A stretch of DNA of 64,000 nucleotides from NCBI GenBank assembly GCA_037951105.1, contig JBAMJV010008508.1, positions 27,827 through 91,826 of the forward strand. The letters are read 5' to 3'. Below are positions 48 through 43,480 of this stretch, one piece after another (position 1 is the first letter of the stretch; every line of letters begins with the position of its first letter). Made by a program: the position numbers and the translations under genes. Below the pieces are notes generated by a model that saw only the letters and a program-made list of their open reading frames with translations, searched no databases and had not been told where the DNA came from. This stretch comes from Echinarachnius parma (lineage: Eukaryota > Echinodermata > Echinoidea > Clypeasteroida > Echinarachniidae).

Positions 48-345
48 TTATTTTAAAGACCATTTCCTTCCCGAAGAGGCCTGTCTGTAGTGTCTCCCAC
101 TCCTCCATCTCCTACTCTTTTTCCTCATCCTCCTCACCATCATCATCATTTCCTCCTCCTTCTGCTGCTTTCTCATCCATACTCTCTTCATCTTCACTGC
201 TAAAGAAAAAATGGAAATGAAAACTATCAGCATCTTTAACTTGAGACAATTGTTAAGACATTTTACTTCCCGAAGAGGCCTGTTGGCAGTGCCTCTTTCT
301 CCTCCTCCTCCTCCTCCTCCTCCTCCTTCTCCTTTCTCATCCATG
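48..345 (-). pseudogene. Two acidic SEC63-like exon copies with stops
   Basis: Two tandem copies (about 203-345 and 48-211) each begin after a TTTAG acceptor with AG(T)GA codons and share GATGAG, a GAG/GGA run and AGGCCTCTTCGGGAAG. Joined to exon 18 in phase, the copy at 211 reads SEDEESMDEKAAEGG and DDDGEEDEEKE, then TAG. After the stop it continues EMEEWETLQ, resembling the family's EAEWQELQQ. The copy at 345 reads SDHE then stops. Either these are echoes of a real exon left of base 1, or SEC63 is broken here. Confidence 0.5.
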
Positions 346-457
346 CCCTATTCATGGTCACTGCTAAAAATGTGAAAAACAACAACAACACATTTTCAAA
401 CAGAGAGAAAACTGATCAGAAATACATCAAATAAATGAAAATGAGCAAATAATAATG

Positions 458-531
458 AGCTTCAACAGGAATTGAACCCGAGACGTCTGGATTGCAAGAA
501 CGGTGCTCAACCAGAGCATCGAGCGACCATC
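458..531 (-). repeat. tRNA-derived (Cys-like) SINE head
   Basis: On the minus strand the sequence reads GGTCGCTCGATGCTCTGG (A-box-like), an anticodon loop TTGCAAT with GCA, and the B-box GGGTTCAATTCC. The acceptor stem does not pair well, so a SINE head or tRNA pseudogene is likelier than a working tRNA-Cys. Confidence 0.5.
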
Positions 532-943
532 AAACATATAAAAAGGTGAAATAACTTTCATCACAAAAAACCTCCTACAACACAAAAATGAACACCTGCT
601 TTGACTATCAACTGATGTATGAAATATACACATCTACATGCGCTATTAGAATATTAACTCATCAACGATGATTTGATTTTGATGTTACATGCACTCTCAA
701 TAGGCTGCACCCCAAGTAGTTTCGGGACCAGTCATGAATGGGTTGAATAGTTCATTCAGTTCTGACATCCTAATGAATTAAAGATACACCCTGAAAACAT
801 GTCTGTTTTTACAATTGATCAATAATCGTGTTATTAATAATAATGGTGTCTATCTTTTTATTTGGAAAGGGTATTGATATTTAAGAGAAGCCAATCTCTG
901 GCATCTTCACTCACTGTTTACAGATAATTGCATATGTCCTGTC

Positions 944-1192
944 CCTTCTAGTCGTATATATCCTCCTGAGTATCACTAATGATGGAAATAATGTTTTTGA
1001 GACCACCATCATGATCTCTTTTTACTGCCCTCTGGAGACCGCTACGTTTTCCACCGGTTCCGCAAGTCACGTCATCCGAGCATGCACTAACCAAGCGGTT
1101 ACAGAATCACTGACATAGCAGCAGACTGAATAACAGCAGTTACATAACAATAACGAGTAATGACAGCAATGACAATAATTAAATGAGACTCA
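944..1192. repeat. Copy of the dispersed CTTCTAGTCGTATAT repeat
   Basis: CCCTTCTAGTCGTATATATCC, a GAGACCGC segment and GCATGCACTAACCAA recur in the palindromic element at 45562-46029. This copy abuts the donor side of SEC63 exon 18. Confidence 0.55.
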
Positions 1193-1193
1193 C

Positions 1194-1255
1194 CTTGCTG
1201 AGTTCTGTGCAATCTCATCATCACTCTCTGCTCCGCTACGGTCTCCTTGGTCAAC
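1194..1255 (-). CDS. SEC63: SEC63 exon 18: acidic segment
   Basis: It encodes VDQGDRSGAESDDEIAQNSA, like the charged region before the SEC63 C-terminal beta domain. Acceptor TTCTCAG, donor GTGAGT. It leaves phase 2, so the next exon should begin with one base completing AG-N. Confidence 0.65.
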
Positions 1256-4200: not shown

Positions 4201-5284
4201 CAGGTTCTTGAGATATCGCGAGAACGAAATCGGGACGGACGGACGGACGGACGGACGGACGGACGGACGGACGGACGGACGGACGGACGGACGGACGGAC
4301 GGACGGACGGACGGACGGACGGACGGACGGACGAACCCGAAAACATAATGCCTCCGGCCACTTCGTTGGCGGAGGCATAAAAAGTAAAGCAATATTTCCT
4401 TCTTCTGCTTTTATTATTGAAACAAATTATTGTGGTAAATCTACCGAAATTTCAAATTGTTTACCGCTTGATCATCGTCTTCTGGCAGAGCTTATAAAAT
4501 AGGATATTAATATTATCATTATAATGAATAAATACAAATTAAATAAAGCCATCATTTCTTGCTTTTCTCCGCTTTTATTTATTGAAAATAAGTCTACAAA
4601 TGTTACAAACTCTTTACCGCTTGATCATCGTCTTCTGCCAGAGCTTCTTTCGCCGGTGAGCCGTTTGCATTTAATGCAGCTTTGCCGGCTGCTTTCTTCG
4701 GTTGTTGTTTCTTGGGTTTGGGCTTGTTGCCCCCACCCCCGCCAGCACCTCCCTTCACTTTCTTCTTTTTCTGCTGCTTCTCCCAAACTTTGGGCTTATT
4801 CTTGCTAGCCATTGGAGAATCCTATGAATACAAATGATCAAAAATATTGAACAATTTAATTCATATCATAATCAAATTAATATTTATAATCATGAAATTG
4901 TCATATTTAATGATCAAATGTTCTATATATGTGGCAGGTTTGCTGGATGGTTTATTCTGTTGTTGCTGTTGCTGCTGTTGTTGTTGTTTCTTTTGTTTGG
5001 GCTTGTTTCAACCACCCCCTACTCCCCGCCCCCACTGCCACCATTTCCCTTCCCTTTCTTCTTTTTCTGCTGCTTCTCCCAAACTTTGGGCTTATTCTTG
5101 CTAGCCATTGGTGAATCCTATGAAATAAAAAGTATATTTAATTTCAATATTTCATTCATATCATAATCAAAGTCATATTGTAACCATATAATTATCATAA
5201 GATGATCAAACATGCTTTCTTATGTTGTTGTTGCTGCTGCTGTTGTTTCTTTGGTTTGGGCTTGTTGCAACCACCCCCCCCCCC

Positions 5285-5320
<36 letters not shown>

Positions 5321-7428
5321 ACTGACACCATTTCCCTTCCCTTTCTTCTATTTCAGCTGCTTCTCCCAAACTTGTGTAGCCATTGGAGAATCCTATGAAA
5401 TAAAATGTATATTAAATTCAAATATTTCATTCATATCATAATCAAATTTATATTTATAACCATGGAATATGATAAAAAGTAATAAATGTGGCAGGTTTGT
5501 AATCAAATAAGTATTTTTTAAAAATTAGACCTGTGTATTTCTAGTTCAAGTTATAGCTAGATCAAATGAGCTTCAAGATGCTTGCGTCCTTGCGCTAGCT
5601 ACCATACCACTACTCGACTGGCCGCCCACATGCATAATTTATGAATGCCTCCTGACTAGATTGTATGAATGACTGGCAATATTTGTTATTGTTGTTAATT
5701 TTGTGGCTGCCTACCAATTTGCAAAATTTGCAAAATTTGCAAAATTTGCAAAAAAAAAGCTCATACAGTAATCAAGATCATATTAGAGAGGCGGGGGGAG
5801 AGGTTCTTGTGTTACTCACCTTTTCTGAGACTTCCCTCTCTTCCGCAACCTCCCTGGATTCCAGGGCTGGCATGCCGGCTGTGCTACTCACATCATCTTC
5901 TGAAGGTATCTGCAATATTACGCAAGAAATGTATCTTTCGTTTCATTTCATGTTATTCCATTCGTCATATAAAAACATACATAGTTAATTATAACATTGA
6001 TATTTACAGTAAAGAACATACAAACAACATGAAGAAAGATAAACTCAAAATACAATTATATATGTACGAATGAGGAAACCGGCAAGAAAGAACATTAAAG
6101 TCTTATGTGGTGCTGGTCTCTTATGAAATAATAAAGAATGTTACCCGTACCTAACACATTAACACCTAAAACCTTAACACCTAACACATTAACACATAAA
6201 ACCTTAACCCTATCTAGACTGGGCTATTTTGAACCTTAAAAAAACTGGGGGGGGGGGGGGGGGCTAAAAGGGCCCCCCCCCCCCTAAGAATTCGGCAACC
6301 GAAACTCTGATCGACTCCAAATTTGGCATCGTGATAGATGTCTATAAGGTCTACAATATTGCGTAGTTAAAATAAAAAAATTAATTAGAATATGCTAATT
6401 AGAGCTAATTAATTATGCAAAAATTGTATTTTTTTGTATTTTTTGTAGTTTTTTCGGCAATCGAAACTCCAATCGACTCCAAATTTGCCATGGTGATAGA
6501 TGTCCATGAGCCATACAATACTGCATAGTTAAATGTTTTGTTTTAATTATAATATGCTAATTAGAGCTAATTAATTATGCGAAAATTGCATTTTTTTTTT
6601 CCGTATTTTTTGCATTTTAAAAATATTTCTTATATATTTTTTCGATGGAATAAAATATTAACCATTATTCAACCATTTGTAGCCCAAAATTAAATGATTG
6701 CAGTGATCAGAATGAAAAATAATGAAGGTTTTGTCTTATTCTAGGAAAAAGTCAATTTCCATAGGATTTGTACACAAATCACAAAATTTAGCGATTTTCG
6801 GGCCGACGCTCACTTACAAAAGGTCACGTAACTTTAGAACGGTACACCCGGTTGTCGCAAATTTGGTATCAAAAGTTGCGCAAGACTCTAAGGAAAAAAG
6901 TCGTGAAGTGGCACCGTAAAATATTTAAGCGTTGCGAAGTAATCGCGAAAATAGAGGTGGGGGGGCTAAATCAGCCCCCCCCCCCCCCCAGTCTTATTAC
7001 GGTTAACACCTTACAACTAAGATCTTTTGAGGGTGGCTGGCATATTCAGTTAAATTCAATTCACTTTATTTCCAATATATACCAAAACAACTCCCAACAA
7101 TTACAAAATATTCAAATGGATAATTGATTCAAAAATTAAATATCGCATTCTTACGGAGTAAAATAAATATGTACAATCGTATTATCAATAAAAGTGGAAA
7201 TATGAGAAGCCTGCAAAGCTAAAGCTAGAACCAGAACGTCAATGACGTAGCGCTCATCCGGCATCTCGCAACATCAAATATCGCAAATTTCATGTGGTAC
7301 ACTTTTCAACTGGTCAAAAAATAAAAATGTGATGCCCTGGAAGGGACATAAAAATTAATTTTAAAAAAAATAGAGTGAAAAAAATATAAATTTGACGCCC
7401 CAGAAGGGACATGGGAAAAAAAAATAAA

Positions 7429-7465
<37 letters not shown>

Positions 7466-10400: not shown

Positions 10401-13400
10401 AGAGCATACGGCCAATGAGCAGCCTTGGAGGCGCATCAGGCAAGCAAAAAATATGACAAAATACATGTATGGTGCGATTGATACACAGAGTGGTATATTA
10501 GCAAAAATATATCTGAGAGGGAAAGATATAACAATTTTACAAAGTAGACTATGATTTTTTTTATCGGAGATAATAACCAAACACTTTATACACACAACTA
10601 CCCTTAATTCTATTTTATATCATTTGAGCATCATCAGCATTTTATTTCATTTTACTAGCTGTGCACAATGAACTAAATCTCTAAAAAAATATAAGCTCTT
10701 TCCACAAGGTTTTTAACGCAGTGAATGTGCATAAGAGCCTGCCTTCATCTAAGGCCAGGGGGGTGTTTCACAAAGATCCTAAGTTGAACTTAACTCTAAG
10801 TTGGACTTAGCAAATATGGAATGCCGTCAGTTTCTTTGAAACAATTTTGTACAATTTCTTTAAAAAGGCAATAGGTGTTGATTCCAATCATTGATATTTT
10901 CCATTATCAAGGAGATTTTATGTTCTCGATGTAAAATTTATAAAAAAAGTCTAAAATACTTGCATTTTTGCTTTTGAGTATACTTTACTTCAAGGCTACA
11001 CATGGCTGTCCATAATTTTTAAGTCCAACTTAGAGTTAAGTTCAACTTAGGATCTTTGTGAAACACCCCCCTGATCAATTATAATTCATCTTGAATAGAT
11101 ACATTGTCCTTTTACACACTCTATTTGTGCAAGAAACTAATGTATTTAAAAAGAAAAAAAAATTGTTAAGAGACAAACCTCTTGTCAGTGTCCTTCAATC
11201 TGATGAACTGACCTATACTCCTGATGTTCCTCTGCAAAAGTGAAATGAAAATATATAAATATGTTGATGTTTCATTAAAAGGATAGTTGAGTTTTGGTAT
11301 TAAAAGAGAGTAGAGTTTTGGTCAAACTGAATTTTCGTAACCTACACCTGCACCATTACATTACAAACTAATGGTTATATCTCCACTATGCTCGAAATGA
11401 ATACAAAAATTACAAAAGACTAAGTAAAAAGCCGGTTAGCATTAAATAGAGAACTGTTAAAACTCAAGAGGGCGCTCTCAAAAAACTCATTGGTTTCAAC
11501 CATTTTAGATAAAATATTGTGCATACATGTGATGTTTTGTTGAAGTAGTGATTAGATAGAGAGATAATCAACAACTATTTAAAAACCTCTTTTGTACATT
11601 TTTGAAAAGAGGAAGCATTTTTTTTTAAATTAACCATGTTAACGGTTGGTTCAAAATTATCGAATAATTGTGGGGCCCCACAATTATCATGCATGCAATT
11701 TTTCACGGCGATCGGCCGCTCCGCGGCCGAGATCTTAGGGTGGGGCCATAATGGCCCCCCCCCCCCCCAGCCTGCTGAAGACCTCAAATAGCCCGGCCTT
11801 TTTAGGGTTAAAGGGAATCAAACTAAAGGTTATAAATCATTTTGTAAACCACTATTCAGGTAAGTAAAGATAACATTAACACATTACACTTTAATTTCAA
11901 ATATTACAACTGATTTTTAACTGACCTTTTTTGACTGGCAAAGCCCGAGTGTCTCCTCAGCATCATGAGGGGTGATTTACCCCCACGTTGCATGTATGAT
12001 CACAGGGCTTAACAGACTTTTAACTGACCTTTTTTGACTGACAAAGCCGGAGTGTCTCTTCAGTGAAGTGTGGAAGTTGCATGAGGGGTGATTTATCCCA
12101 TGTTGCCTGTATGATCATGGGGCTCAGTTTCATGATGTGCTCTATCGTCTGAAGTTTAGGCTCCTTGGCAGCTGTAATAACAACACACAGATAATGAAGA
12201 CTACTTATGCCTAGGTCACAAATGCACCGGGTGCCGCACAATTTTTCTACCTACGGCAGATTTTTGGAAAGTCTGCTGTATCTTGGGTAGCAATCACATC
12301 CAGTAAATCACACATGGACGCCTTACGGGACTCGTACGGACATCGCAAGATACTCTTACAATAACTTTGAAATCTTACCACTACCATATGATTTGAGTAG
12401 CCCAAACTTCAGTCTCAAAATTGTATGATATTCAGAAAAATGTTTAGGTTGAAAACTCATCTTCTCTTCTCCGCTTCTTTGTGATTGTTAATGTTTTACT
12501 ATATACTGTACATGACGTTTATGTTATATTTACGTTTAAACTTACAAGCACTTATAGGTTTTCTGCAATATGCGCTATACAAATATACATTATTATTTGT
12601 ACTTGCCCAACGATGAAAAGTTAATTTCTAGCATGACTTACGATTTCCCCCGTTGTATTTAAAGAAGACGATGAGCTGAGCCGCTGTGTTGACCATCTCT
12701 TGGACTAGCTGCGGACACTTCTTCACCATGTACAAACGATCTACATGAACAAGAAAACAGGAGGTATAGTGGTTATAATAATAATAATAATACACATCTT
12801 TTATATAGCGCATATCACACTGCAAATGCACGTCTCTACACGCTTGTATTATTACCCTGGTCGTTACTGGTACAGTTCAAACCCGCACAATTATCTTACG
12901 CACCATCTCAACTCCCTGGGGAGCATACTAGCCAATGGCAGCCATATGATAGCGCCCAGGCTAATTGACATCCAATTAGGTACCCATTTATACTTCTGGG
13001 TAGAGAGCAGCAATATGGATTAAAATGTCTTGCTGAAGGACATAAATGATGGGACATCAATCGGGTTTGAACCCACGACCTCTAGATTTGAAGTCAAGCG
13101 TCCATCCGATCGTGCCACACCATCCCCATAAACTGCAACTAATCTTAAAGTTTTCAACTGCAAGTCTAAGTAGGAGCCGTTTAATATAGGTCTAGGATAA
13201 ATCTCAGTTATAAAGGTTGTTTCGCCTTGTGAGGCTCTTCAGTAACTGATTAAAATTTCACTTGGGGTACAGTTGCAAGTACACTTATATATAATAGACC
13301 AAAAGATAACATATTTACAGGGATCTAGTAACTATGTTGACATAAAAAAGTTAATAAAATGTATATTTCTGAGATTTGATATGTCTACTACATGAATAAA

Positions 13401-16400
13401 ATTACCAGATCTAGTAACTACGGTGACAAAGGATTTATCATGTGTCGACCATCTCTTGGATAATTTTGATGCTGTGTGGGTTGCAACCCTTTTGAAGAGC
13501 GAACATTTCAACACCTAGACTACCTCACATCACCCAACAGGGGGTTTCAACAGGAGAATACTGTAAGAGGTTAACCCGTTCCCTTTGAGTTTCTGAAATC
13601 CTCATAGACTTTGTACACAACCCACCCGGTTCCCATAGTCAAGGGGTTAACAAACTTTAGCTTGGTCCAGTGGCTCTGGCAGATGATCGGACCGACCGTG
13701 CCAGATGAGCGTGGATCAAGCTCCTAATTTTGACGCTGTGTGGGTTGCAGCCCTTTTGAAAAGCAAACATTTCAACAACTACATTACCTCACATCAAACA
13801 ACAGGGTTTTTTAACCCATTGCTTACGGGAACCAGGTGGGCTATGTACAAAGTCTATGGGGATTTCAGAATCTTGCAGGGAACGGGTTAACAGGAGAGTA
13901 CTGTAAGAGGTTAACAAACTTTACCTTGGTCCAGGGGCTCTGGCAGGTGATCGGACCGTGCGAGATGAGCGTGGATCAAACTCCGGACTTTGACGCTGTA
14001 CGGGAAGCAGAACGGTTTCTCCTTGTTCTTGATGTTGATTTCAAACTCGCGCACAAGCTGTACACAAAGAAAAAAAGATTAAGATGTTTTTAAAAAATAA
14101 TCATCAATGAATGAAACTCAATCCCATTGCACATGCACCTTTGTAAAAAAAAAGATACATGTACACGTTTTTTTTTTGTTTTTCTTACTCAAAACTTAAA
14201 ACACTAAAGAAATTTGTTATTAATTGTTGTTTTTTTCAGGCAACTAGCCACATGAAAATTCATTTTTGAGGTGCTGAAATAACCCTCATCTTGTTTGTTC
14301 TCATACAAATAAAAAAGGAATGCTGATGGGTAAAGTTTTCTGGCATGTCAAACCTCAACAAATTATACTGGCAGTAGCTCGCAAATGATCACGTATAGAA
14401 CCAACACCCGAAAAATATATATCTAATATATGAAAGATAATAGTTTTAGTAGTTCATTCAACATAGAAGTTTGGAACAATAAGTTTGCAGAAAAAACTAG
14501 ATGGATCTTCGACTGCGCGCAGTCGAAAAAATTATGCCTCCGCTATCACGCGATTTTTATATCAAGCCCAAATTAACATGCACAGAATTAATTCTGTAAA
14601 CTCAATTTTGATGGTAATCCATCAACCAGATCTTGAGATATCACTATTACAAGCTATTTTTTGCATATAACACGAGTCCTGTGACATTGACCTTTCACAT
14701 CATGACCCCAAAATTATATGGCTACACTGGCTCCCTAAGATTCATTCAGGTACCAAGTTTGATTGAAATCTGAAATTTAATTCTTGAGTTGTTACAATTA
14801 CAAGCTATTTATGCAATTCTGTGACCGTGACCTTTGACCTCATGACCACAAAATTGTATAGCTACATTGGCTCCCTATGATACATTCAGGTACCCAAGTT
14901 TGATTGAAATCTGACATTCAATTCTCGAGGTTATACAATTACAAGCGATTTTTGTATACAATCATATCATGAGTCCTGTGACCTTGACCTATGACCTCAT
15001 GAGCCCAAAATTGTACATGGCTACATTGGCTCTCTATAATACATTCAGATACCAAGTTTGATTGAAATCTGACGTTCAGTTCTTGAGATTTTGCCATTAC
15101 AAGCTATTTTGGCATGTTTGAGTCCTGTGACCTTGACCTTTCACCTCATGACCCCAAAATTATATGGCTTCATTGGCTTCCTAAAATGCATCCAGGTACT
15201 AAGTTTGATTGAAATCTGACTTTCAGTTTTCGAGATTTTGCCATTACAAGCTATTTTTGCATATATGATGAGACCTGTGACTTTGACCTTTGACCACATG
15301 ACCCCCCAAATCTTGTCAGATCATTGTCACCCCGATATGTATACTCATTCCAAGTTTGAAATTGATCCGTCAACCGGTTCTTGAGAGATCGAGAGAACGA
15401 AGACGGGACGGACGGACGGACGTACATACAGACGGACGGACGGACGGACGGACGGACGGACGGACGGACGGACAACCCAAAAACATAATGCCTCCGGCCA
15501 CTTCGTTGGCGGAGGCATAACAAAATAATTTGAAAACTCATTATCATACTAAATTATGTGTTCATGGGTCTGCAGATGAAGACTAATTAAATGAGTTCTA
15601 TTGTCTAGGTCATACGCGTTCTATTGTCTCCAAACCTATCCACGTATTGAATTGACGCACTCGCAAATGTTTGGCGATTAATTGCATTGTTTATGAATTA
15701 CACAACCCTTTGCAATATGTTGGACATCTATTTAATATCAAATACGGTACTAAAACAAATAAGCCTGTGTTGTTCTTTGCTCGGTGGTCCCCTTTAAGAC
15801 CAGAGTTCCTCACCTTGGGCACTTCTTCGTTGTCACTGGGTCTGACGACCACCTTACTGTTGTGTCGTTTATCAAACTCAAAGGAACCAGACAGGATTAT
15901 CAAGGCACCTATTAAAGAAATCAACAAATGAAAATGAAATATTATTCCAGAATTGAAATATATAAGTGTTGAGTTGCAATAAATATAATAAACATAATTA
16001 TGGAATGGAGTAACATTTAAAGTCTTATCCATCATTTGCATAATGTTAGTGCAGCAAAGATATACAGATCCATTAACTCAATCAAAAACTGATTTGAGGC
16101 TTTAACATTTTTCTTTTTGACTTATGTAACAGAAGTATGAATTGGGTTTTGATTTTTCAAATGTCTCCCTAATTATGGAGACTGAATATGATTGAAAAGC
16201 ATTTCATTAAATTCGTTTTTTATTGTAGTAACAATCAATGGGCAGTAGGCGATACAAACTGAAATCAATTTTCACCTCTGTATTAAAACAGTGTTCTTTC
16301 ACTCATCATTCTGAGAAATCTTACACTGCGAATGGTTTATGACGGAATTCTCAAATATTAATTCTCATATATTCTCATTAAAGTTTCTACATAGTCAAAA

Positions 16401-19400
16401 TAAATGGGCAGTAGGCAATACAAACTGAAATCAATTTTTCAATAATGTAAACGGTGTTCTTTCACTCATCTTTCAGAGAAATCTTACACTGAGAATGGAT
16501 TTTGATGCGATTCTCAAATAACACTTTTGGAAAAAAATCTGGTGTCATCACCATCATCAACATAGACGAAATTGTGATGAATATGCTTTACACGCTTCAG
16601 CTAAAAGCAAAAGGGGTTAAAAGACGAGTGAACAAGATGGGTCGACTGTTAACAATTTGTATCGTCAGAGAATGGGATCCACGTCCTTATCCACACAATC
16701 AAGAGGACTCTACAACAAAAGGGTGTCAAAGATATTGAATGGGAGGGGTTGACTTCAACCAATTTGCATCGTCAGAGAACCGAAACGACGTCCTCATCCA
16801 CACAATCAAAAAGCCCCTACTGTTGTACTTACTAACATCATGAGGGGTTTTTAAGATAGCATAGCTGCCAGCCTGCTTAGATCAAAAATCAGAATGAATT
16901 AAGCAAAAAGTAGCAATCTTCATATACATGTAACTACATGCTTTTACATTGAGATTTCTGTGCAAAAAGGGGAATCAACTGTCTATAGCCTACAAGAGGG
17001 GGAAAAATAGGAATCATCCCTCCAAAAGAGGAATAGTTGGCAGCTATGAGAGAGTGATTGGGAGGGGTCGACTGTAATCAGGGGGTGTTTCACAAAGATC
17101 CTAAGTTGATCTTAGCACTAAGATGGTCTTAAATATTATGGAAAGCCATTAGTGTCTTGAAACAGTTTTATAAAAGTTATGTTGAAATGCATAAAATGTT
17201 GATTCAAATCATATATATTTTCTAATTATCAAAGAGATTCATAATCTTCACATAAAATTCATGAAATCTCTTTGATAATTAGAAAATATATATGATTTGA
17301 ATCAACATTTTATGCATTTCAACATAACTTTTACAAAAATGTTTCAAGACACTAATGGCTTTCCATAATATTTAAGACCATCTTAGTGCTAAGATCAACT
17401 TGGGATCTTTGTGAAACACCCCCCTGCTCACATTGTCAGAGAACAGGAAAGACATCCTCGTCCACACAATCGAAACTGTTGTACTCACGTTTAAGGTTCA
17501 TACAGGGTGTTTTGTGGAGATAGTATTGGAAGAGCTGAGTGGTGTCAATCAGAATCTCCACGGCGGTGTAGCGGATGGACCGATACCACCATGTCCCCTG
17601 GTAAAAGGAGAAATTGAAGAAAGATACCATAAGGATAACGGTTAATAAAAAGGATTTTCCCTAATAATCTGCAAAAGGCATGCACGATACAGAATCAATA
17701 ACATTTTTAGAGGAAATATTGTAAGAGCCGAGGGGTGTCCATCAAAATCTCTTCAGTGGTGTAGCGGATTGGCCGATACCACCATGTCCCCTGGTAACAT
17801 AGACAAATGCTCGCCAGCATTGCACCTCCGGCCCTTCGCAGGGAGCACCACACACAACAACTAGTAAACAAGGCACCCCCTACACCACATCACCCAAAAC
17901 GCACAACTAGGCTGTCAACGCCTGCATTCCTGTAGACCCTTCAGCCGCCAACCAGCATCTCTGCAAGATTTCAGCCGCCAACCAGCATCTCTGCAAGATG
18001 GTACCTACAACACCCTCAGCGCATGGAAGGACGGCTGGCAGCAGACCCCTCGACCCTCCCCCCCCCCTCCCCAATTCACAGTGACCCCCAACTCAAAGCT
18101 GCCAACAGGTGCGGACCTACCACAAAGAGACTGGGTCACCCTCAACAGTCTCTGTACAGGAGTTTGCAGATTTTAACGTCTACATTATGGACCTTTTATT
18201 AAATTTGATTTGCCCAACATATTAGTTTACCTTAGGCAACGCTCGAAATTAACTTTTTTTGCTGGTGGCCCGGTCGGGCCAGTAAAATTAGTATTTTTCC
18301 AATTTTGGTGGCCCGAAACCAAAATCTACTGGCCCGAAGAAAATAAAGAAAAACAAAAGAAAAAAAACGAGAAAATTAATATCACATTCAAAACTGTGGA
18401 AAAGTGCAAAATTCACTGTTATTATACAAATTTGACCTCAACATTCCGTGTAAATGTCATGTGAAAATCTCAGACAAATAACATGTTTTTAAATTGTGGT
18501 GTTTTAAGCTAATAATTGTAAGTCAAAAAGCCGATTCATCGGCTGCAAACATTGACAAGTCACCGATCTACTGTATCCGATTTCGAATACGGCAAACATG
18601 ATTTATTGAGTTTTACATGCATAACAAATTTGATTGATAATGGAAATTTGTGCTTATATATCAGACTTTTAATCTCACAATTCCGTAGAATATTGTTTTG
18701 AAACCTGTCATGAATGACACATTTTTCAAATTGTGGTGCTATATTTGTAAAACTGTTAGTCAAACATTTATAAATTCTTTGTGAACTTACGGACACAGTC
18801 ACAACATCGGCGGCAACACAAGACGTAGACAATGCAGACACAACATAGGCTATGTTGAATTTTACATGCGAACCAAATTTGATCGATTATTAAAATATCC
18901 TCTCACATTTCAGACTTTTAACCTCACTTTTCCATGGATTATTGTTTATAAACCTCACATAAATTAAATATTTTCAAATTGTGGGTTTTTGTTGTTGAAA
19001 TTTTGGTGTCAAACATTGATGAATTGATCGTAAACTTTCTATGCTCACGTAAATTGCATGCACACTCACTACATGTTTTTACATTCCATATTTGGAATTG
19101 GAAAGCTCCATTCACAAAACGGGGGTGTGGGGATAAACAGAATGGAAAAAAAACACAAATTAAACTTTTACAAATCGGACAACATTTCTCTTAACTTATT
19201 TCCGCAAGTGTAGCAAATATTATTCTTGATATTTCCTATTATTTATTCAAGTTTTATATACAAACTGAACTGATAACAGAATTAATTTGATATCCTTCTA
19301 CCTATCCCAAGTGGAACATGCTGTACAAATTTTACATGTGGGATCGGATGGGGGGCGGGGCAGAAATAATGCTAATTATAATAATTTGCGCCTTTTCTAA

Positions 19401-25400: not shown

Positions 25401-28400
25401 TTTTAAATAAAAATTAGCGATACTTTAGTTTATGTGGTCCCTCTCTACCTGGGATGCTTTCAGTGCTATTAAAATGAACACTGCCCAGGCAATAAATAGG
25501 TAAAAAAAAGGTTACAAAATTGACAAAATCAATTACAATCAGTTCATTATTCTATAATCATTTTCCCCTCATCATGGTATTATAATAATTTTAACTTTGA
25601 AGCACTAATCTGTTATGTAAATCAGTTTGTTCAAAGTCATTTAAACATCAATGGAAACATACTTTCTTACCAAATGCTTGGACTTAACACAGGCTTGCTA
25701 GCCAAGGGAGACTAACAATTGGCTTTGGGCAATTTTCAAGCAGTCAGCATATCAAGGTAAATTTGAATTTCACTTCCCCAAATAGGCAACCAAATACAAT
25801 ATAATTTTACAAGATTTTCTTTGGGGCTACCTTTTGCCACCAGATTCAGATTTTGGGCCACTCAAATTAGAAAATCATCATATGTGACCTCACACCACAA
25901 AACGACCGATAAGTCGGGAAAAATGATTCTGCTAATTTTTACATGACATTAAAGTAGAAGTTATTACCTTTAAAATGGTATATAATTTGTCATATTTGGA
26001 CTAAGCGAACCCTCTCATAATGAGCCCCAAAGATTTGGAACATGGCTGAATTAGTTTTAAAGTTAGGGAGAAAACAGGCTGTTTCAAAGATCGGCGTCCA
26101 TTCAAGCACTGTAATCTGATCATATTTATTTGATTAAAAATCATATTTAAACATGATTTCTGCCGCTCAAAATTTTACAAAAGGTAGATTATGATACCCT
26201 CATTCAGGAAATACCAAAATCTTGAATTTCATATTTTAAACAAAATTTGGCTATATCAGCTAATAACAGACAAACTACCACGGCGACATAACGGTCGTTT
26301 TGTGGTGTAAGGTCACATATTTACTTGTCAGACTGGACCACAGGGAATAAGCCCTGGTTAATTTCTAGCATGCTCTTACCTTAAGACATTTTTGACAGTG
26401 CTAGATGTTGAGGGTGCCTTGATTTGGGCTCTCTTGGCTTCACACGGGTCACAGTGGCAAGCTTTGCGTGATTTTTCAGGATCATCTAAAATAAAATAGA
26501 AAACAAAATTAGGGAGAAAAATTTTTTAAAATTCAAAATAATCAGTTGGCTGTTGACAAAGTGTAGTGAATTTTTCAGGATCATCTAAATAAAAAGGAAA
26601 ACAAAATTAGGGGGGAAAATCAACATTCAAAATAATCAGTTGACAAAATGAAGATAATATTTTACATATTCCCAGGATCCTTTATTAATAATCCAAGTAA
26701 ATGAAAATAAAATCTTATGCTGACTTCTTATTTACAATTCACAGAAAGTTGAACAGTGGACAAATAAGTGATGTAATTTGACAAGGTCATTTTCAAGCTT
26801 GCCTGCATGAAAATAGCACTCTAAAGTTGTATTGCATTGAACTCTATTAAAGGGATAGTTGAATTTTGTTAAGGAGTGTACAGTTTTGGTCAAACTGAAT
26901 TTTAGTAACCAAAACCTGCACCATTACATTACAAACTAATTTATAACTCCATCATGCCCGAAATGAATAACAAATTATAAAGGACTATGTAGTAAAAAGC
27001 CTGTTATCATTAAAAAGGAGCTGTTCAAACTCAAGAGGAGGCTCTCTAAAAACTCATTGGTATCAACCATTTTATATAAAATATTGTGCATGTGATGTTT
27101 TGTTGAAATAGTAATTAGAAAGAGAGATAATCAACAACTATCTAAAAACCTCTTTTGTAAATTTTTAAAAAGAGGAAGCATTTAAAAAAAAATTAACGGC
27201 TGGTTCAAAATTATCGAATAATTGTGGGGTCCCCACAATTATTACAAATGGTTATGGATATTCAGCCATTTCTGAACCGATTTTGATCAAATAAATTTTA
27301 TTCTGTCATTAAAATTGTATGCTCTTTCGAATTTGCCACTCAGTTTTTCATTATCTCACAACAAAATTATTTTGTGTAGCGCCCTCTATACCAAAACTCA
27401 ACTATCCCTTTAATTTTCTACAGCCTGTACAGGGGGTTCTTTTATGATTCAATTTAGGGCCTTTTTGGCATTTCAGGGACTCAATCACCCTGAGACCCTG
27501 TGTACTTTTTTTAATGGAGGAAAAGGAAGAAACATTTTTTATATGTACAACTTTTATCATAGGCTTTTTGAAAGAACGAAAATAAAGTCTTGAAATACCC
27601 ATTTGAAAATCATGTCGTTATACTATTACTAATGTCTAATGAATGATCTTTTCTGTTTACGCCAATTCACACCGGTGTAACATAATTTACGAACAACTCA
27701 TCATAGGTTTTTGTACATTACAAATTCACCTTTTAATGGGGGGGGGGGGGGGGGGGGGACTAGTGGGGGGTTATCTTTTTGCTTGTTTTCACAAAAATAT
27801 GAAGGAATAGCTTATAGTTATTACTGATGGGCGACAAGTTGTTCATGACCTTAAGTTTATTCAAATCAAAGCTTCAAGCTCATAAAATTGCTTGACTTTG
27901 TAAAATTGTAATTTTAAAAATTTGACTTAATTGTAAAAATATCAGGACTCAGGTAAAAATCTGCCATCTGTAAATTAGCAGCATCTCGCATTATATATGT
28001 GTTCTGACAGATTGCAATTAATTAGCCAATTACGAACAACATGCACAATTCTCAACAATGACAACAATGATCCATTGAGTATAGCAGGGGGTTGCATTAC
28101 CGAACGGGTTGTATTTCCGGACATACAAATTCACATAGGAAAAACGTTCAAATTTTGAAAGTTAAATTTGAAAGTCGGCATTAACGGAGGATAATAAATG
28201 GATGTTAAGCAAACATTTTCCATCATTTCCCGATGAAAATAAGCGTCGTGAGGTGTTATACGCGCGTTTTGCCGCGCACCAGTGGCAGCGCGCATGTCAA
28301 TAATGACATTCCCATGCAAAACATTCACGTTCGGTTAATACAACCCGCAATTTTGCGTCAGGAAGAGGCTTCTTTTTTGGAAGGGTTTACAAGAAAGTTG

Positions 28401-32909: not shown

Positions 32910-32967
<58 letters not shown>

Positions 32968-36289: not shown

Positions 36290-36323
<34 letters not shown>

Positions 36324-39300
36324 ATTCAGAAAGGTCCACTTTGCTTCGATCTCGTCCATCGCTTGTAATGTAACTATAATAAACCAGTGGTCTCAGTCTT
36401 ACTGTGTAGGCCATGATTGGTCTTTGCCACGATCAACCCCTCCCCCACCCCCGCTCACCCAACTAAACCTGTGATATGTCTTTTTATCTATTTATTTAGG
36501 CACTCTACATTGGTGAATGGTGATATTTATGATGACTATCATTCTCTTTATAATGCAGGAATTGGAAATCACTGACAATACAGTAATCCATGCTGTGGCA
36601 ACTCTCGAGCGGTCCCCCGTCTCAAATTCTGGTTCTGGCGGCAATGGTACTTCTCAGGTTGTAGACTCTCCAGGTAATCATGGCGTTTTAAGGAATTATC
36701 ATTAGTCTTACTTTTATGTTTATTCTTAAAAGAATAGGAAATCACTTTCAATAGAGTAATGCATAGGCCTACTGTGGTGACTCTGGAGAGGTTCTCAGTC
36801 TAATTCTTTGTCCATATTTTCACATTTCAATTATTGTATTATATATATGTTGAGTGTAAAAATTAATATTTTAAACATTAATTTAATCATGTAAAGTATG
36901 ATGTACATAGTATAGGTTGGTGCAACTTTGTTTGGGGTGGGGTAGTTGATAAAAATTATATAATTTATAGTTTGACTATTCACATATACACACTCTGGTC
37001 TGGTATGAAATGAAATATATTTAGATATGTAATAATATAAGTGAAAAATAAATAATTTGTTTGGATGTGTATTTGCTTTCTCATTCCTAAACTCGGCAGG
37101 GAGTGTAACAGATAATGATGCAATGAAATCCAGCTTCTATGTGTACTGCAAGCATCCCTGTCAGTCTGTCCAGCCGGGTAAACTCAGAGTGTGCTGCAGA
37201 CAGTGTAACCAGGATGCATTCACTGTATCTAGGGTAAGCCACTCTCATCGGTTCTTTCTTTTGTTCATTCGTTCATTCATTTATTCATTTGTTTATTCAT
37301 TCATTCATTCTTTCATTTGTTTGTTTGTTCGTACATTAGGTCTGGTCAGTTGTGTGTTTATTCATTCATTCATTCATTCATCCGTTGGTTGGTTGGTTGG
37401 TTGGTTCTTTCATTCATTCATTCATTCATTCATTCATTCGTTCTTTCGTTCGTTCGTTCGTTCGTTCGTTCGTTCGTTCGTTCGTTCGTTCGTTCGTTCG
37501 TTCATTCATTTATTCAGTCATTCATTCATTCATTTGTTCGTTCATTTGTTCATTCATTTGTTAAATCATTCATTCATTCATTCATTTGTTCATTCATTAG
37601 GTCAGTCATTCATATATATATGTAAAACTCATAAGTTTGTTTTATTGTTTTCATTTCATCCTTCATAATCATAGTTTTATCATTCAGATTATTAAATATA
37701 TTTTCAACACTATTTGTATGTTTTAGGATCCAAGTTGTTGGGATGACGTCTTGAAACCAGGCAGAATACCAGGGAGATGCCACATATCACAGTGTGAGGG
37801 GGAGCAAGCTGTAAGTTACCAAGATATTCAGTATCCAGGTTAAACGTTTGGATAATGTTCTAATAACAGGCAAAAAAAAGAAGAAGGTTGATGCCGCATA
37901 TCCCAGTGTGATGGGGAGCAAGCCGTAAGTTTGAAGAAAATATTGATGTTAGTATTAAAAAGAAAACTATTTTGTGCGTGTTTTCCAATTTGTTGATTAT
38001 ACGTACCATTTTTTTTAGACCTCTGGAGTCTAGAAGATATTACAATGACATAAATATTTTCTATTTTGTAAATGACCCACTGTTATTTATTTGTAATTTC
38101 CAAAAGTCATATTAACAATAGAATTAAAAAAATAAATAATACCTTTAAGTTTTAGGATAGACTGAGAGTCAGATGAAGAAATAAACATGATGTTTCTTAT
38201 ATCATTTATATAGACACTCATTAAACTAGGTAGGTCACATTTCTGAGCTCATCTTGTCTTAAATCTGTATAAATCTGTATTTATTTCTTCTTTTTGTTTT
38301 GCAGAAATTTTACTTCAAGTGTGCATCCCACAGTGCTGTTGATGGCGAGCATGTTATACCTCTTCCGCTCCTACGGACCAACACCAGACAAGTGGAATGT
38401 TTGACATGCGGGGATGTTATGTAAGCCTGAGCCTAATTGAATGGATATTTCCTCTATTTATTAAGAAGTTAGTTTGTAACGTTATCAGAAGCTTCAGTGC
38501 AAAAGTGTAATTTACACCCAAACGAGGTACCCAAACGTGGAACCCATTTATACTCCTGGCTAGAGAGCAGCAATGTGAACAAACTTGTCTTGCTAATTTT
38601 GAAAAGCATTAAATATGGTGCCGAATAAAGATTGAAATGTTTACATGCTCTTCAATCCATCCATGTTTATCTATTTCGTTTATTTTTCTCTGGAGCTCAA
38701 CATATATTATACTGAAAATCCGGGGGGAAAAAGATCAATATGAACAAAAATAAAGAAGCTGACCTGTAATTTTACTTTCTATCTTGTAAATCATGTTATG
38801 TTAGTGTGCTTTTTATAGCCCGGTCACATATCAACGGATTGCGTAAAGGGACGTCAAACAGAGAGCTAAATTTTCCATCCGTTCGTCTCCGTTCGTATGC
38901 GTTTCTTGTCCGTTCCTTGTCCGGTGATGTACGTTGTTCTGTGTTTTGTACATAAAGCAATGGAGACGACTTTCATCACCGGATAATTTCATTTCGCAAA
39001 TTTTCTATTCGTTGGGCATTCGTTTCCGCTATCCGTTGATATCTGACCGGGCCATTAACAGTTATCCATTTTCCCTGTCTTTGTTAATCAAAATATTTAT
39101 TGCAGGAGCCCGATCATAGTGTTTGAATGCCCTGCGTCACATGTGGTGTGTAGAGACTGCTTCACTCAGTACTGCCAGCTTTGCCTCAATGAGAGACGCT
39201 TCATCCACGACCCTGATCTTGGCTACACACTACCCTGTCCTGGTAAGATTACAGTCTTGCCCTTTATGCAGGCCTCCACACTGACTTTTTTCTATGCTGA

Positions 39301-42300
39301 CTCTTTCAGGCAAGTCAAATCATAAATGTTCAAATTTTACTTGCCCCAATAGAAGCAATTACTTGCCCTAATAGAAGCAATTACTTGCCCTAATAGAAGT
39401 AATTACTTGCCCCAATAGAAGCAATTACTTGCCCCAATAGAAGCAATTACTTGCCCCAATAGAAGCAATTACTTGCCCCAATAGAAGCAATTACTTGCCC
39501 CAATAGAAACAATTACTTGTCCCAATAGAAGTAATTACTTGCCCCAATAGAAGCAATTACTTGCCCCAATAGAAACAATTACTTGCCCCAATAGAAGCAA
39601 TTACTTGCCCCAATAGAAGCAATTACTTGCCCCAATAGAAGCAATTACTTGCCCCAATAGAAGCAATTACTTGCCCCAATAGAAGCAATTACTTGCCCCA
39701 ATAGAAGCAATTACTTGCCCCAATAGAAGCAATTACTTGCCCCAATAGAAGCAATTACTTGCCCCAATAGAAGCAATTACTTGCCCCAATAGAAACAATT
39801 ACTTGCCCCAATAGAAGCAATTACTTGCCCCAATAGAAGCAATTACTTGCCCCAATAGAAGCAATTACTTGCCCCAATAGAAGCAATTACTTGCCCCAAT
39901 AGAAGCAATTACTTGCCCCAATAGAAGCAATTACTTGCCCCAATAGAAGCAATTACTTGTCCCAATAGAAGCAATTACTTGCCCCAATAGAAGCAATTAC
40001 TTGCCCCAATAGAAACAATTACTTGCCCCAATAGAAGCAATTACTTGCCCCAATAGAAGCAATTACTTGCCCCAATAGAAGCAATTACTTGCCCCAATAG
40101 AAGCAATTACTTGCCCCAATAGAAGCAATTACTTGCCCCAATAGAAGCAATTACTTGCCCCAATAGAAACAATTACTTGCCCCAATAGAAGCAATTACTT
40201 GTCCCAATAGAAACAATTACTTGCCCCAATAGAAGCAATTACTTGCCCCAATAGAAGCAATTACTTGCCCCAATAGAAGCAATTACTTGCCCCAATAGAA
40301 GCAATTACTTGCCCCAATAGAAGCAATTACTTGCCCCAATAGAAGCAATTACTTGCCCCAATAGAAGCAATTACTTGTCCCAATAGAAGCAATTACTTGC
40401 CCCAATAGAAGCAATTACTTGCCCCAATAGAAACAATTACTTGCCCCAATAGAAGCAATTACTTGCCCCAATAGAAGCAATTACTTGCCCCAATAGAAGC
40501 AATTACTTGCCCCAATAGAAACAATTACTTGCCCCAATAGAAGCAATTACTTGCCCCAATAGAAGCAATTACTTGCCCCAATAGAAGCAATTACTTGCCC
40601 CAATAGAAGCAATTACTTGCCCCAATAGAAGCAATTACTTGCCCCAATAGAAGCAATTACTTGCCCCAATAGAAGCAATTACTTGTCCCAATAGGAGCAA
40701 TTACTTGTCCATGTACTTTTAGATGAGATTCACACAGACAAAATTGAATGTTTCTCTTATAGTTGAATATTTGTTTAGTTGCCCAATCGGGCAACCAAAT
40801 GAGACCATTTATGAATTTCTACTTGTCTGATATCAATTTGTAGTTTGTTCTTTTTAAAGAGGCCGGAGGCATAATTTAAACTGGGATTGTGTTCCAATTC
40901 TCAGTTGTGACTAGCAGCTTAACCAGCTGCACAATTTATTTTCTTCTTTTTCAGCTAAATGTGAGGATTCACTGATCAGAGAGACCCACCATTTCCTCGT
41001 TATGGGAAAAGAACAGGTAAATATGAAGAGAACGTCTTATATCGTATAACACAATAAATGCAAGTTTTGAACATTTTAAATGTGAGGCCATAATTGTGCA
41101 GCACACAATTAATTAATGCATTTCTTTGAATAGATTGATACTTGCTTGAATAAAACATACAATTATATTTTTGAAGTCATGATCAATAATATCACAAATA
41201 TTTATTATCTTTATGTATAAAATTGATTTGAGTATTTGGAGTACATTGGAGTACATGTATGAATTTCTCTATCTGTGCCTTTCAGTATACCAGTTTGGTG
41301 CAGAAGAGTACGGCTTACACTCAGGAGGGTGGGGTACTGTTTTGTTTGTACAATGTCACCCATTTTCTCTATCCTGACTTCAACATCTCAGTATACCAGA
41401 TACAAGCGGTTTGGTGCAGAGGAATACCTTCTACAGGAGGGTGGGGTACTGTGCCCCTCCCCAGGGTGTGGTGCAGGGATACTACCCCATGCCAGTGAGA
41501 GGAGAGTCATCTGTGAGAGGGAAGGGGGCTTTGGTTGTGGGGTAAGTATTCATTATTTTATCATATAGGTGTCTGTTACTGAGTTTTTATTTCTCCGCCA
41601 ACAAAGTGGCATGCAGAGACATTATGTGTTTGGGTTGTCCGTTCGTTCTTGTTATATCTCAAGAACCGGTTGACGGATCAATTTCAGACTTCTTTTCCCC
41701 TTGAACTTAACATGCGCTTTATAAGTAGCCATCATTATTATTATTATTATTATTAACTTCCTTTCTACATAATTATACGGTTATATTTTAAGCCAATTGT
41801 TATAAAAAATACTGTGAATTGGTACCATGTATTTATATCATATCAATTTTTCTATTAATTATTTTAAATTCATTTTTTGTTTGGGGGGGGGGGGCCTGGG
41901 GGTTATCACATTATGGAAAATTCCTACTTATTACAGCTTTTGTCTGCTATTAGTTATACATATTTTAGAGAAAAACAGTTGCATTGAACCACCCTGTTTC
42001 TGCTTCTGCTTGTTTGTGATAGTACGTAGTATTTATTTGTACTCACTCTTTTTTGTTTGTTTAAATACCATTCCATAGTTGGTCTTCTGCAAAAACTGCC
42101 ATGAAGGCTTCCACGAAGGGGAGTGTGGACAGAGGAAGGAAGAGCCAGGAGGTCAAAGGTCAGAGGTTGAGGCAGTTTCTGAGGAGAGGGAGAGGCAGGC
42201 TAGATGGGAGAGGGAGGAGAGTCGGAGGACGATAGAGAGAACGAGTAAACCGTGCCCCAAGTGCAGGGTTCCTACAGAGAGAGATGGTGAGACTTTACAG

Positions 42301-42979
42301 ATGGTTCGGATTTGTAAATCAGACGTACAGTGCCATCTTGCGAAAGCTTGCGCACAGTGTGTAATACACACTCGTTCAGTGTTATGCAGTGCGCATAAAC
42401 CAGCCTTGTTAAGAATTGTTGAATTGCAGTGTAGTATCCCCTTGTATGACGATCTGTAACTTCTGTCACTCTGTACCTTTTGTACGATTGTAATATTTTA
42501 GCCGCACACTACACGATATGATTTTGATCCGTCAACCAACTGCGCATCTGAACAAAAGCAAGATGTGCATATTTAAAGCTTGTAATTTAGATCCTTATTG
42601 TTTGACATATATTCAAATTGGATCTGATCGTGGTGGCCTTTAAGTAAAGCAAGAATTTGTAGTTTTGAAGGAGGTAGATTAATCAGAGGGGAAAAGAAAG
42701 AAAATAACGTCCCAGGCTCATTTCTTTCAACTTTGTTTTGTTGTTTGTAACATTTTATCTTTGATTGTTGCTAACATTTACACTATAAACTAAAATAATT
42801 CCATTGAATTGAGAAATATTAATTGTGTTTTGCATTCCTTCCATCTTCTTTCAGGTGGCTGTATGCACATGACTTGCAGTCGAGCACAGTGCGGGTTTGA
42901 GTGGTGCTGGATGTGTAGCGTTCAATGGAATTCAACTTGCCTTCAAGACCACTGGTTTGGAGCGGACCCCCTGTTGTGA
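34780..42979 (+). CDS. PRKN: Parkin RBR E3 ubiquitin ligase (10 exons, frameshift in exon 1)
   Basis: Parkin is a cytosolic RBR ligase that PINK1 activates at damaged mitochondria. Exons: 34780-34996, 36559-36673, 37100-37233, 37727-37810, 38305-38420, 39106-39242, 40955-41016, 41392-41541, 42079-42286 and 42855-42979, all GT-AG and frame-consistent. With one extra base in exon 1 ignored, the product is about 448 aa (human 465). Order: UBL, linker, RING0, RING1, IBR, REP, RING2. All zinc-ligand Cys/His positions of RING0, RING1, IBR and RING2 are present, as are the catalytic Cys in GGCMHM and the REP Trp in QARWE. The site matching human Ser65 is Thr. The C-terminus is HWFGADPLL instead of HWFDV. 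Head-to-head with SEC63 at 3.3 kb. Confidence 0.95.
34998..35618. mobile_element. Long palindromic MITE beside the PRKN exon 1 donor
   Basis: Arms are inverse around about 35310: TAACTCAAGTGAACGCTACC on the left, its inverse on the right near 35616. Shared blocks include GGTCGGGCTCATAGTGCCCC and GATCAGAATGATGATTTTTC. Each end has an extra GCTACCGC/GCGGTAGC hairpin. It begins within about 6 bases of the splice donor. Confidence 0.85.
36288..36323. repeat. Poly(C) tract
   Basis: A run of more than 30 C in PRKN intron 1. It gives spurious proline- and glycine-rich frames. Confidence 0.9.
36559..36673 (+). CDS. PRKN: PRKN exon 2: end of UBL and linker
   Basis: It encodes [20 protein letters not shown], aligned to human NCDLDQQSIVHIVQRP, then a Ser/Gly linker. 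Acceptor AATGCAG, donor GTAATC. The Thr in DNTV sits at the PINK1 site position. Confidence 0.85.
37100..37233 (+). CDS. PRKN: PRKN exon 3: RING0, first half
   Basis: It encodes [20 protein letters not shown] and RVCCRQCNQ, carrying four RING0 zinc ligands. The match to human NSFYVYCKGPCQRVQPGKL is near-identical. Donor GTAAGC. Confidence 0.95.
37255..37612. repeat. (ATTC)n/(GTTC)n microsatellite in PRKN intron 3
   Basis: Tracts of CATTCATTCATTC switch to TTCGTTCGTTCG at 37437-37502 and back. The resulting long Phe/Ile/His/Ser frames are not genes. Confidence 0.95.
37727..37810 (+). CDS. PRKN: PRKN exon 4: RING0, second half
   Basis: The 28 codons [20 protein letters not shown] and SQCEGEQA match human [18 protein letters not shown]. 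Donor GTAAGT. A broken copy of its 3' end follows at 37886-37933. Confidence 0.95.
37886..37933 (+). pseudogene. Decayed copy of PRKN exon 4 3' end
   Basis: GATGCCGCATATCCCAGTGT then GATGGGGAGCAAGCCGTAAG duplicates the last 40 exon bases with the donor, 100 bp downstream of the real exon. It has lost the 5' part and acceptor. Confidence 0.85.
38305..38420 (+). CDS. PRKN: PRKN exon 5: RING0 end, RING1 start
   Basis: It encodes [20 protein letters not shown] and [11 protein letters not shown], giving the last RING0 Cys/His and the first RING1 Cys pair. Acceptor TTTTGCAG, donor GTAAGC, phase 2. Confidence 0.93.
38818..39052. mobile_element. MITE with GCCCGGTCACATAT ends, copy 2
   Basis: GCCCGGTCACATATCAACGG on the left and CCGTTGATATCTGACCGGGC on the right are near-perfect inverses. 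It shares its interior with 1573-1808. Confidence 0.85.
39106..39242 (+). CDS. PRKN: PRKN exon 6: RING1
   Basis: It encodes [39 protein letters not shown], the most conserved part of RING1. A GCCCGGTCAC MITE ends 53 bases before this exon, and the 22-bp satellite follows the donor by about 100 bases. Confidence 0.95.
39339..40713 (+). repeat. 22-bp satellite array in PRKN intron 6
   Basis: About 62 near-identical units of AGAAGCAATTACTTGCCCCA(AT), with few recurring variants (AGAAAC, TTGTCC, TTGCCCTA). The array arose inside a copy of the dispersed CAAGTCAAAT/TTGCCC repeat, whose edges are at about 39300 and 40790. No spacers, so not a CRISPR array. Confidence 0.95.
40955..41016 (+). CDS. 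PRKN: PRKN exon 7: RING1-IBR junction
   Basis: It encodes [20 protein letters not shown], matching human [20 protein letters not shown]. Acceptor TTTTTCAG, donor GTAAAT. Confidence 0.93.
41272..41341 (+). pseudogene. Decayed copy of PRKN exon 8 5' part
   Basis: After CCTTTCAG it reads TATACCAG, lacks the 10 bases ATACAAGCGG of the real exon, then has TTTGGTGCAGAAGAGTACGG and CAGGAGGGTGGGGTACTGT. The 10-base loss shifts the frame. The acceptor is intact, so it could act as a poison exon. Confidence 0.85.
41392..41541 (+). CDS. PRKN: PRKN exon 8: IBR domain
   Basis: It encodes [29 protein letters not shown] and [10 protein letters not shown] with IBR zinc ligands. Acceptor CATCTCAG, donor GTAAGT, phase 0/0. 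Confidence 0.95.
41590..41690. repeat. Inverted fragment of the GGAC-type element
   Basis: CTCCGCCAACAAAGTGGCAT, GGTTGTCCGTTCGTTC and AGAACCGGTTGACGGATCAA are the inverse of the right end at 4190-4380, in PRKN intron 8. Confidence 0.75.
42079..42286 (+). CDS. PRKN: PRKN exon 9: IBR end, REP helix, RING2 start
   Basis: It encodes [16 protein letters not shown], an acidic/basic helix with [18 protein letters not shown] (REP, Trp kept) and [14 protein letters not shown] (first RING2 Cys pair). Confidence 0.95.
42302..42450. mobile_element. Second copy of the 23006-type 158-bp repeat
   Basis: GGTTCGGATTTGTAAATCAG, GTGCCATCTTGCGAAAGC, TGCGCACAGTGTGTAAT and CAGTGTTATGCAGTGCGC parallel the 23006-23163 element. 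It starts about 15 bases after the exon 9 donor. TTAA ends are not evident. Confidence 0.65.
42855..42979 (+). CDS. PRKN: PRKN exon 10: catalytic RING2 and stop
   Basis: It encodes [40 protein letters not shown], then L and TGA at 42977. It contains the catalytic Cys, the His two residues later, and the remaining zinc ligands. The terminal Asp-Val of vertebrates is replaced by GADPLL. Confidence 0.93.
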
Positions 42980-43480
42980 GGCTGAGAGGAGAGAAGACCA
43001 GTTTGTACTGGAATGAACTGGTTTGAACCACACTGGTTGTAGAACCCCTGTGGTGATCATGCTGAGAGGAGAGAAGACCAGTTTGTACTGGAATGAACAG
43101 GTTTGAGCCGCACTGGTTGTTTGGGGCTGCAGTAAAATTCTGCATGTCTGCAGGATCATTGGTTTGGAGCGGACCCCATGTGGTGATGCTGAGAAGAGAG
43201 ATAACAAGTTTGTACTGCACTGGACTGGTTTGAGCCGCACTGGTTGCGCTGCATTTTGTGTAATTCATCATGTCTGCAGGATCATTGGTTTGGAGCAGAC
43301 CCCCTATGGTGATGCTGATCAATGCATAGGCAGGGAAATCCAGTTCAAACTGGTTTGGACTAGTATTTTACCTCCTGAAGAGGTGCAAAATGGAGAGAAA
43401 CCCGTTTGTACTAGAGCTGACTTGTTTGAGCCATGCTGGTTGTGCAGAGTTCAGTGGAATTGAACCTGCCTTCAAAAACC
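42980..43480 (+). pseudogene. Tandem decayed copies of PRKN exon 10 pieces
   Basis: GGATCATTGGTTTGGAGCGG recurs at 43153 and, with one change, 43277. AGACCAGTTTGTACTGGAAT-type units recur at 43004, 43076, 43199 and 43398. TTCAGTGGAATTGAACCTGC at 43450 repeats the exon's TTCAATGGAATTCAACTTGC. None is an open exon. Confidence 0.8.

Follow-up and report, generated by a model that had tools for sequence, protein, structure and literature searches.

Decaying partial copies of exons in SEC63, PRKN and CCT genes, and their likely origin in local tandem duplication

Introduction

Several exons in the DNA studied here are accompanied by broken copies of themselves, referred to below as echoes, which raises the question of how such copies arise and whether exons are singled out by the process. 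The window, that is, the whole 64,000-base stretch that was analysed, comprises bases 27827-91826 of a 91,826-base contig in a 1.2 Gb assembly of 14,790 contigs. SEC63 lies on the minus strand, from about 31.5 kb down to -5.7 kb and thus past the left edge of the window; PRKN lies on the plus strand and ends at 42.98 kb. A PRKN intron contains a 22-bp satellite of about 62 copies (39337-40707), and the SEC63 introns at 18235-19100 and about 1964-3000 contain repeat families with dozens of copies among the matches listed, mostly 95-100% identical.

When COX1 of the same assembly is compared with that of a mammal, ATA is found at isoleucine in 11 of 18 cases, AAA at asparagine (1/1), AAG at lysine (4/4) and TGA at tryptophan (14/14), while AGA occurs once each at S, A, G and V positions. 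The pattern indicates the echinoderm-type mitochondrial code (table 9), so the host is probably an echinoderm and not a cephalochordate; the protein may resemble that of a sea cucumber. Table 9 is also used by some flatworms.

The exon set consists of 27 located exons of SEC63 and PRKN, 23 of them inside the window, and is without SEC63 exon 13 and PRKN exons 1-2. Exons are denoted S3 for SEC63 exon 3, P4 for PRKN exon 4, and so on; S19 and S20 lie left of the window. The SEC63 basic exon is the one numbered 17 in the first-pass annotation, a sequence-only reading that named decayed local copies at several exons of the two genes.

Exon echoes in SEC63 and PRKN

The echoes in the two genes are confirmed as real. 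Alignment of the window with itself by BLAST recovers those named in the first-pass annotation, with some corrections: the local copies at SEC63 exons 3, 5, 8, 10, 12 and the basic exon, and at PRKN exons 4, 8 and 10, are direct, with shifts of 77-583 bp. The exon 2 echo, which covers the acceptor, is visible in the unmasked alignment and scores 0 bp when simple repeats are masked. With this masking, 9 of the 23 exons inside the window have a same-strand copy within 1 kb, and at one threshold (E of at most 1e-3, fixed search space of 1e8) a local direct repeat covers at least 20 bp in 12 of the 27 exons, namely S3, S5, S8, S10, S12, the basic exon, the acidic exon, S19, S20, P4, P8 and P10. 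The echoes of S2, S5 (the second), S8, S12, S19, S20 and P4 cross an exon-intron border; for S3, S5 (the first) and P8 the aligned echo stays inside the exon. Many exons have a single extra copy, and arrays of more than two copies are found at S20, S19, the acidic group, PRKN exon 10 and the basic exon.

Table 1. Exons and echoes of SEC63 and PRKN in the window.
Feature	Position	Strand	Basis or remark
SEC63 exon 2	26380..26485	-	reading frame and splice signals
Exon 2 echo: acceptor and about 15 coding bases, 86%, shift 99 bp	26570..26642	-	self-BLAST
SEC63 exon 3	25209..25323	-	
Exon 3 echo: 70 bp, 96%, shift 186 bp, flanks match poorly	25431..25500	-	
SEC63 exon 5	22761..22822	-	
Exon 5 echo 1: 43 bp, 95%, ends one base short of the exon's first base, then a stop codon	22963..23005	-	
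Exon 5 echo 2, with intron flank	23317..23392	-	nested: 22818-23005 also copied at 23164-23356
SEC63 exon 8	17489..17597	-	
Exon 8 echo: 83%, stop in homologous frame	17704..17797	-	
SEC63 exon 10	13925..14057	-	
Exon 10 echo and flank: 72%, shift 264 bp	13461..13750	-	
SEC63 exon 12	12029..12171	-	
Exon 12 echo: 3' part and donor, adjoining tandem copy, 77%	11908..12009	-	
SEC63 basic exon	4618..4821	-	
Basic exon, echo 1	5024..5210	-	
Basic exon, echo 2 (shift about twice that of echo 1)	5333..5499	-	
Basic exon, echo 3 (3' part)	4436..4493	-	
Part of the group of decayed SEC63 acidic-exon copies	1..360	-	intact exon left of window
PRKN exon 4	37727..37810	+	
PRKN exon 4 echo: exon end and donor, 90%	37890..37931	+	
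PRKN exon 8	41392..41541	+	
PRKN exon 8 echo	41293..41340	+	
PRKN exon 10, including stop codon	42855..42979	+	
PRKN exon 10, decayed copies (43100-43246, 43227-43318, 43424-43475)	43042..43475	+	

The stretch at 64-198, previously read as the acidic exon, has an in-frame TAG and is itself an echo; the intact acidic exon lies at about -1086 to -925, and the group of decayed copies to which 64-198 belongs extends from about -918 to +360. The case is a warning that echoes can be mistaken for exons.

An array is present at S20 (locus L009, -4885 to -3848), where eight tandem copies with units of 115-118 bp are about 96-99% alike. Each unit carries the 60 final coding bases in frame, preceded by a new AACAG and followed by the donor (GTAAAT), with no stop inside, and judging from its sequence could in principle serve as a 20-codon in-frame exon. 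At S19 there are two extra copies with 183-bp spacing, whose exon parts are 95-96% alike to the exon and which are 99% alike to one another over 113 bp. A separate class of spaced copies was considered and dropped, as it is partly an effect of masking: S19 is contiguous.

Echoes in CCT genes

SEC63 and PRKN alone were insufficient and the window had been chosen for its echoes; CCT chaperonin genes were therefore taken as a second set. A profile search gave at least 63 matches. Five stretches and a short sixth (L038) were fetched; they hold 27 matches, of which the 6 on a second-haplotype contig (L034) were left out, so that 21 were counted. The ends of these matches are profile ends and not checked splice sites, and 6 of the 21 have a stop within the match. 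Direct copies touch 2 of 6 matches in L033, 4 of 5 in L035, 1 of 4 in L036 (22 bp only), 2 of 4 in L037 and 0 of 2 in L038, that is, 9 of 21, or 5 of 15 among stop-free matches; 4 of the stop-holding matches are among the 9 touched. Six of 13 exon-echo pairs extend at least 17 bp past the profile match. The first-pass claim of a same-strand, DNA-level duplication of exon together with flank, leaving broken copies, is thus supported by the CCT loci as well as by self-BLAST.

Divergence by codon position

If an exon is held fixed at codon positions 1 and 2 while its echo is free to change, the two should differ at these positions half as often as in the flank, and this is what is observed. Pooled exon-echo differences amount to 114/1468 (7.8%) at positions 1 and 2, 148/735 (20.1%) at position 3 and 167/1014 (16.5%) in the flank, a ratio of flank to positions 1 and 2 of 2.12 (95% CI 1.69-2.65). 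The counts leave out the S20 array and are not independent, since pairs share exons; their SEC63 and PRKN part comes from a looser list of pairs (E up to 0.1, length at least 25). Taken separately, the two gene sets have nearly equal values: 34/372, 23/372 and 70/373 at positions 1, 2 and 3 with 88/580 in the flank for SEC63 and PRKN, and 33/360, 24/364 and 78/362 with 79/434 in the flank for CCT. With only stop-free CCT matches the figures become 7.5% (positions 1 and 2), 19.4% (position 3) and 16.1% (flank). The exon has been conserved while the echo decays freely, at the neutral rate.

The exon 3 echo speaks against free decay in its own case. All three differences from the exon are at third codon positions, and the exon part (96%) is far more alike than the flanks, which suits gene conversion or constraint better; on this pattern, gene conversion is possible.

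Frequency of copies at exons and in introns

Seventeen arbitrary loci (L011-L027, 161,898 bases) served as background. At the threshold given above they contain 29 direct and 20 inverted local events, indicating that the genome-wide surplus of direct over inverted copies is modest, and the direct events bear out the earlier suggestion that local copies occur elsewhere in the genome too. A direct repeat touches 11.9% of exon-sized intervals in these loci, 20.4% in the same gene loci, and 45.7% (21/46) of exons, a count reached in 0 of 4000 shuffles; the two L038 matches make it 21/48. Inverted repeats touch 0/46 exons, where 2.8 would be expected for these loci. Restricting the SEC63 span raises the null to 11.1 of 46 (ratio 1.89, P 0.0017), and a null without exon-linked pairs expects 7.75 of 46 (ratio 2.71). 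For SEC63 and PRKN alone the excess is 1.57- to 2.0-fold, with P between 0.009 and 0.053 according to the null chosen. Copies are indeed more frequent at exons than in introns.

Part of this excess is expected from conservation on one side. When exons were simulated as conserved and their copies as free to change (60 runs per point, with an assumed indel rate), copies were 1.45 times more visible at exons. After a 1.45-fold correction, P without L038 is 0.006 for the pooled set, 0.0005 for CCT and 0.22 for SEC63 and PRKN; after a two-fold correction the values are 0.11, 0.004 and 0.61. One-sided conservation may account for much or all of the excess, and an additional exon preference is possible but not robust. 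Of the density difference between exons and matched introns that the first-pass annotation had put forward for checking, the raw contrast holds, with exons touched 1.9-2.7 times as often in the pooled data; about 1.45-fold is predicted from conserved exons alone, and the remainder is not robust.

Exons could instead be true hot spots, at which duplication starts preferentially, for example through nucleosome occupancy, GC content or transcription. The CCT loci L033 and L035-L037 speak for this, as 9 of 19 matches are touched where intron-only events predict 1.52. Pairs at least 88% alike, whose detectability should be nearly equal, touch 9 of 46 exons against 4.41 (P 0.027) or 3.12 (P 0.0013) expected, and the commonest spacing lies near the reported size of a nucleosome. 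Against these figures, adding L038 (0/2) changes the CCT count to 9/21 against 2.57, for which two-fold retention is enough (Poisson P 0.078; 0.014 at 1.45-fold, exon-linked pairs out of the null). Stop-free matches give 5/15 against 1.96 (P 0.16 at 1.45-fold, 0.35 at two-fold, same null), or against 3.25 with all pairs kept in the null, where the excess is 1.5-fold (P 0.20, uncorrected); for all CCT matches that null leaves a 2.0-fold excess (P 0.015). As given above, the pooled excess is compatible with two-fold retention and that of SEC63 and PRKN with 1.45-fold. Moreover, exon-linked and other events are similarly spaced, and introns full of young elements have had a shorter time to acquire copies. 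Because the CCT excess weakens with L038 or without stop-holding matches, an exon preference was rated less likely, and we regard hot spots as an unlikely explanation. Slightly more doubtful is the broader proposal that nucleosome-sized tandem duplications in this lineage start preferentially at exons, leaving nearly half of exons with decaying part-copies; if true, it would provide a large lasting reservoir of cryptic exons and possible new introns.

Functional exons, misassembly or retroposition

The copies might be functional alternative or mutually exclusive exons that are spliced in: several keep an AG or a GT, the S20 units have both splice signals around open coding sequence, and the exon 3 echo has changed at third positions only. 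Coding constraint on both copies is not borne out, since differences at positions 1 and 2 are half those of the flank and not lower, as when a conserved exon has a copy that evolves neutrally; exon 3 alone is less clear-cut. Stops interrupt the exon 5 and exon 8 echoes of SEC63 and those of PRKN exon 10, and CCT echoes have indels of 1, 2, 5 and 13 bases within the exon. This explanation is improbable.

Stitched haplotypes or misassembled repeats would be another source of apparent copies, given that both haplotypes of at least one gene are present in the assembly, and that no second contig was found for the SEC63 exon 3 stretch, nor for the exon 8 stretch among the best 40 of 129 candidates. 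The gene with two contigs is the CCT gene on L033 and L034, which are 94-97% alike over longer blocks (84% in one 492-bp block). The echoes of both affected exons are common to the two contigs, with shifts of 160, 189 and 494-496 bp, which argues against misassembly, for this one gene only. Many copies are 70-85% alike, below allelic identity, and partial exons with decayed flanks fit stitched haplotypes poorly; an artefact is very improbable. The exon echoes of the two contigs do not differ, whereas a 149-bp unit in a CCT intron is in tandem on L034 (C8375:15225-15489) and single on L033. Its two copies are 92% alike, less than the alleles, so the difference may reflect the loss of an old copy from one haplotype instead of a recent gain.

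Retroposition, or transport of exon pieces by a transposon, has next to no probability: multi-copy elements do occur in the same introns, but the copies contain intron flank, lie on the same strand less than 1 kb away, and the exon 3 stretch with its echo is a single match in the assembly.

Mechanism

Local tandem duplication is well supported by the exon copies being on the same strand and by the direct events being mostly spaced 140-240 bp or less. Over the window contig, the CCT loci and L011-L027, 38 of 86 direct events are spaced 140-240 bp and 25 below that. The 140-240 bp class includes 14 of the 25 events linked to exons and 24 of the 61 others; the two groups show no detectable difference in spacing (Mann-Whitney P 0.72). 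We consider it likely that short tandem duplications recur here, and that those covering an exon leave the exon intact together with a freely decaying partial copy in the intron.

The proposed course of events is as follows. Short tandem duplications would keep arising in the genome, most commonly with 140-240 bp spacing, through replication slippage, flap ligation or repair at short matches. Of seven tandem-repeat junctions, the one read closely, at S20, has 7 bases shared between unit end and exon, with one mismatch. A duplication over part of an exon and part of an intron would leave the original exon whole, and the intron with a spare piece that often retains one splice site; selection should purge duplications that are internal to an exon or that repeat a whole exon out of frame, but tolerate those across one border. 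The spare piece would then mutate freely, presumably skipped by normal splicing, while the exon is held by selection, and some pieces would be amplified into small arrays, as at S20, in the acidic group and at PRKN exon 10. The exon excess would for the most part follow from exons being preserved old DNA, at which a copy stays visible longer and the exon itself cannot be lost. A nucleosome or Okazaki-fragment origin of the commonest spacing is a guess, from the sizes these are said to have.

Against this account, inverted local repeats are nearly as common in the arbitrary loci, where element ends may be involved. Within the window, the repeat 18606/18855 lies in a stretch with at least 40 genome matches and is probably internal to an element.

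Comparison with known systems

The original report of amphioxus "mirages" is said to concern Adh (Canestro 2002). Accounts of globin genes (PMC3087553) and PGBD5 (PMC3902484) describe, in the portions consulted, tandem copies over either exon-intron border, many keeping AG or GT, with units of 150-160, 157, 60, 108 and (Adh3) 10-72 bp. The same portions describe minisatellite-like arrays in cephalochordate hosts, with array length varying between haplotypes, somatic instability and normal splicing unaffected, and propose them as a source of new introns (PMC3087553, PMC3902484). The present echoes likewise span exon-intron borders, some keep AG or GT and some form arrays. Unlike mirages, which are reported for a handful of lancelet genes, they affect 21 of 48 sampled exons in a genome with the echinoderm-type mitochondrial code, and their decay has been measured by codon position. 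The mitochondrial code sets the host apart, and says nothing about the mechanism. By this analogy, the echoes look like the same kind of copy in another phylum, at high density. No earlier echinoderm report of such copies was recognised in the portions of the open-access literature consulted. This suggests that mirage-type duplication is not an oddity confined to lancelets. The echoes also offer an internal clock, in which the exon is fixed and the copy free, and many cases for asking how duplicated splice sites are ignored or turn into new introns.

Gao and Lynch reportedly treated intron gain by tandem duplication in 2009. Work on tandem duplication of AG/GT segments (PMC4974935, PMC3443670) describes, in the parts available, intron gain by this route. 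S20-type copies resemble the raw material of that model, being in-frame coding pieces with both splice signals; here no gained intron is shown. Studies of tandem exon duplication and degenerate intronic exons (Exonize, PMC12343006; PMC9013439) report, again in the parts available, exon copies within the same gene, some of them degenerate. That work is centred on full-exon copies, whereas the present echoes are mostly partial.

Non-genic parts of the window

Two non-genic regions had been offered as further examples of local duplication. The one at 59.6-61.2 kb does contain local copies, whereas 54.8-57.8 kb is largely dispersed repeat, parts of which match 14.4-15.8 kb and 48.3 kb. Close to the right end of the window there is an array with a 31-bp unit (62203-63719), and at 51205-53601 the minus strand has a stop-to-stop frame of 799 codons that looks ankyrin-like by eye.
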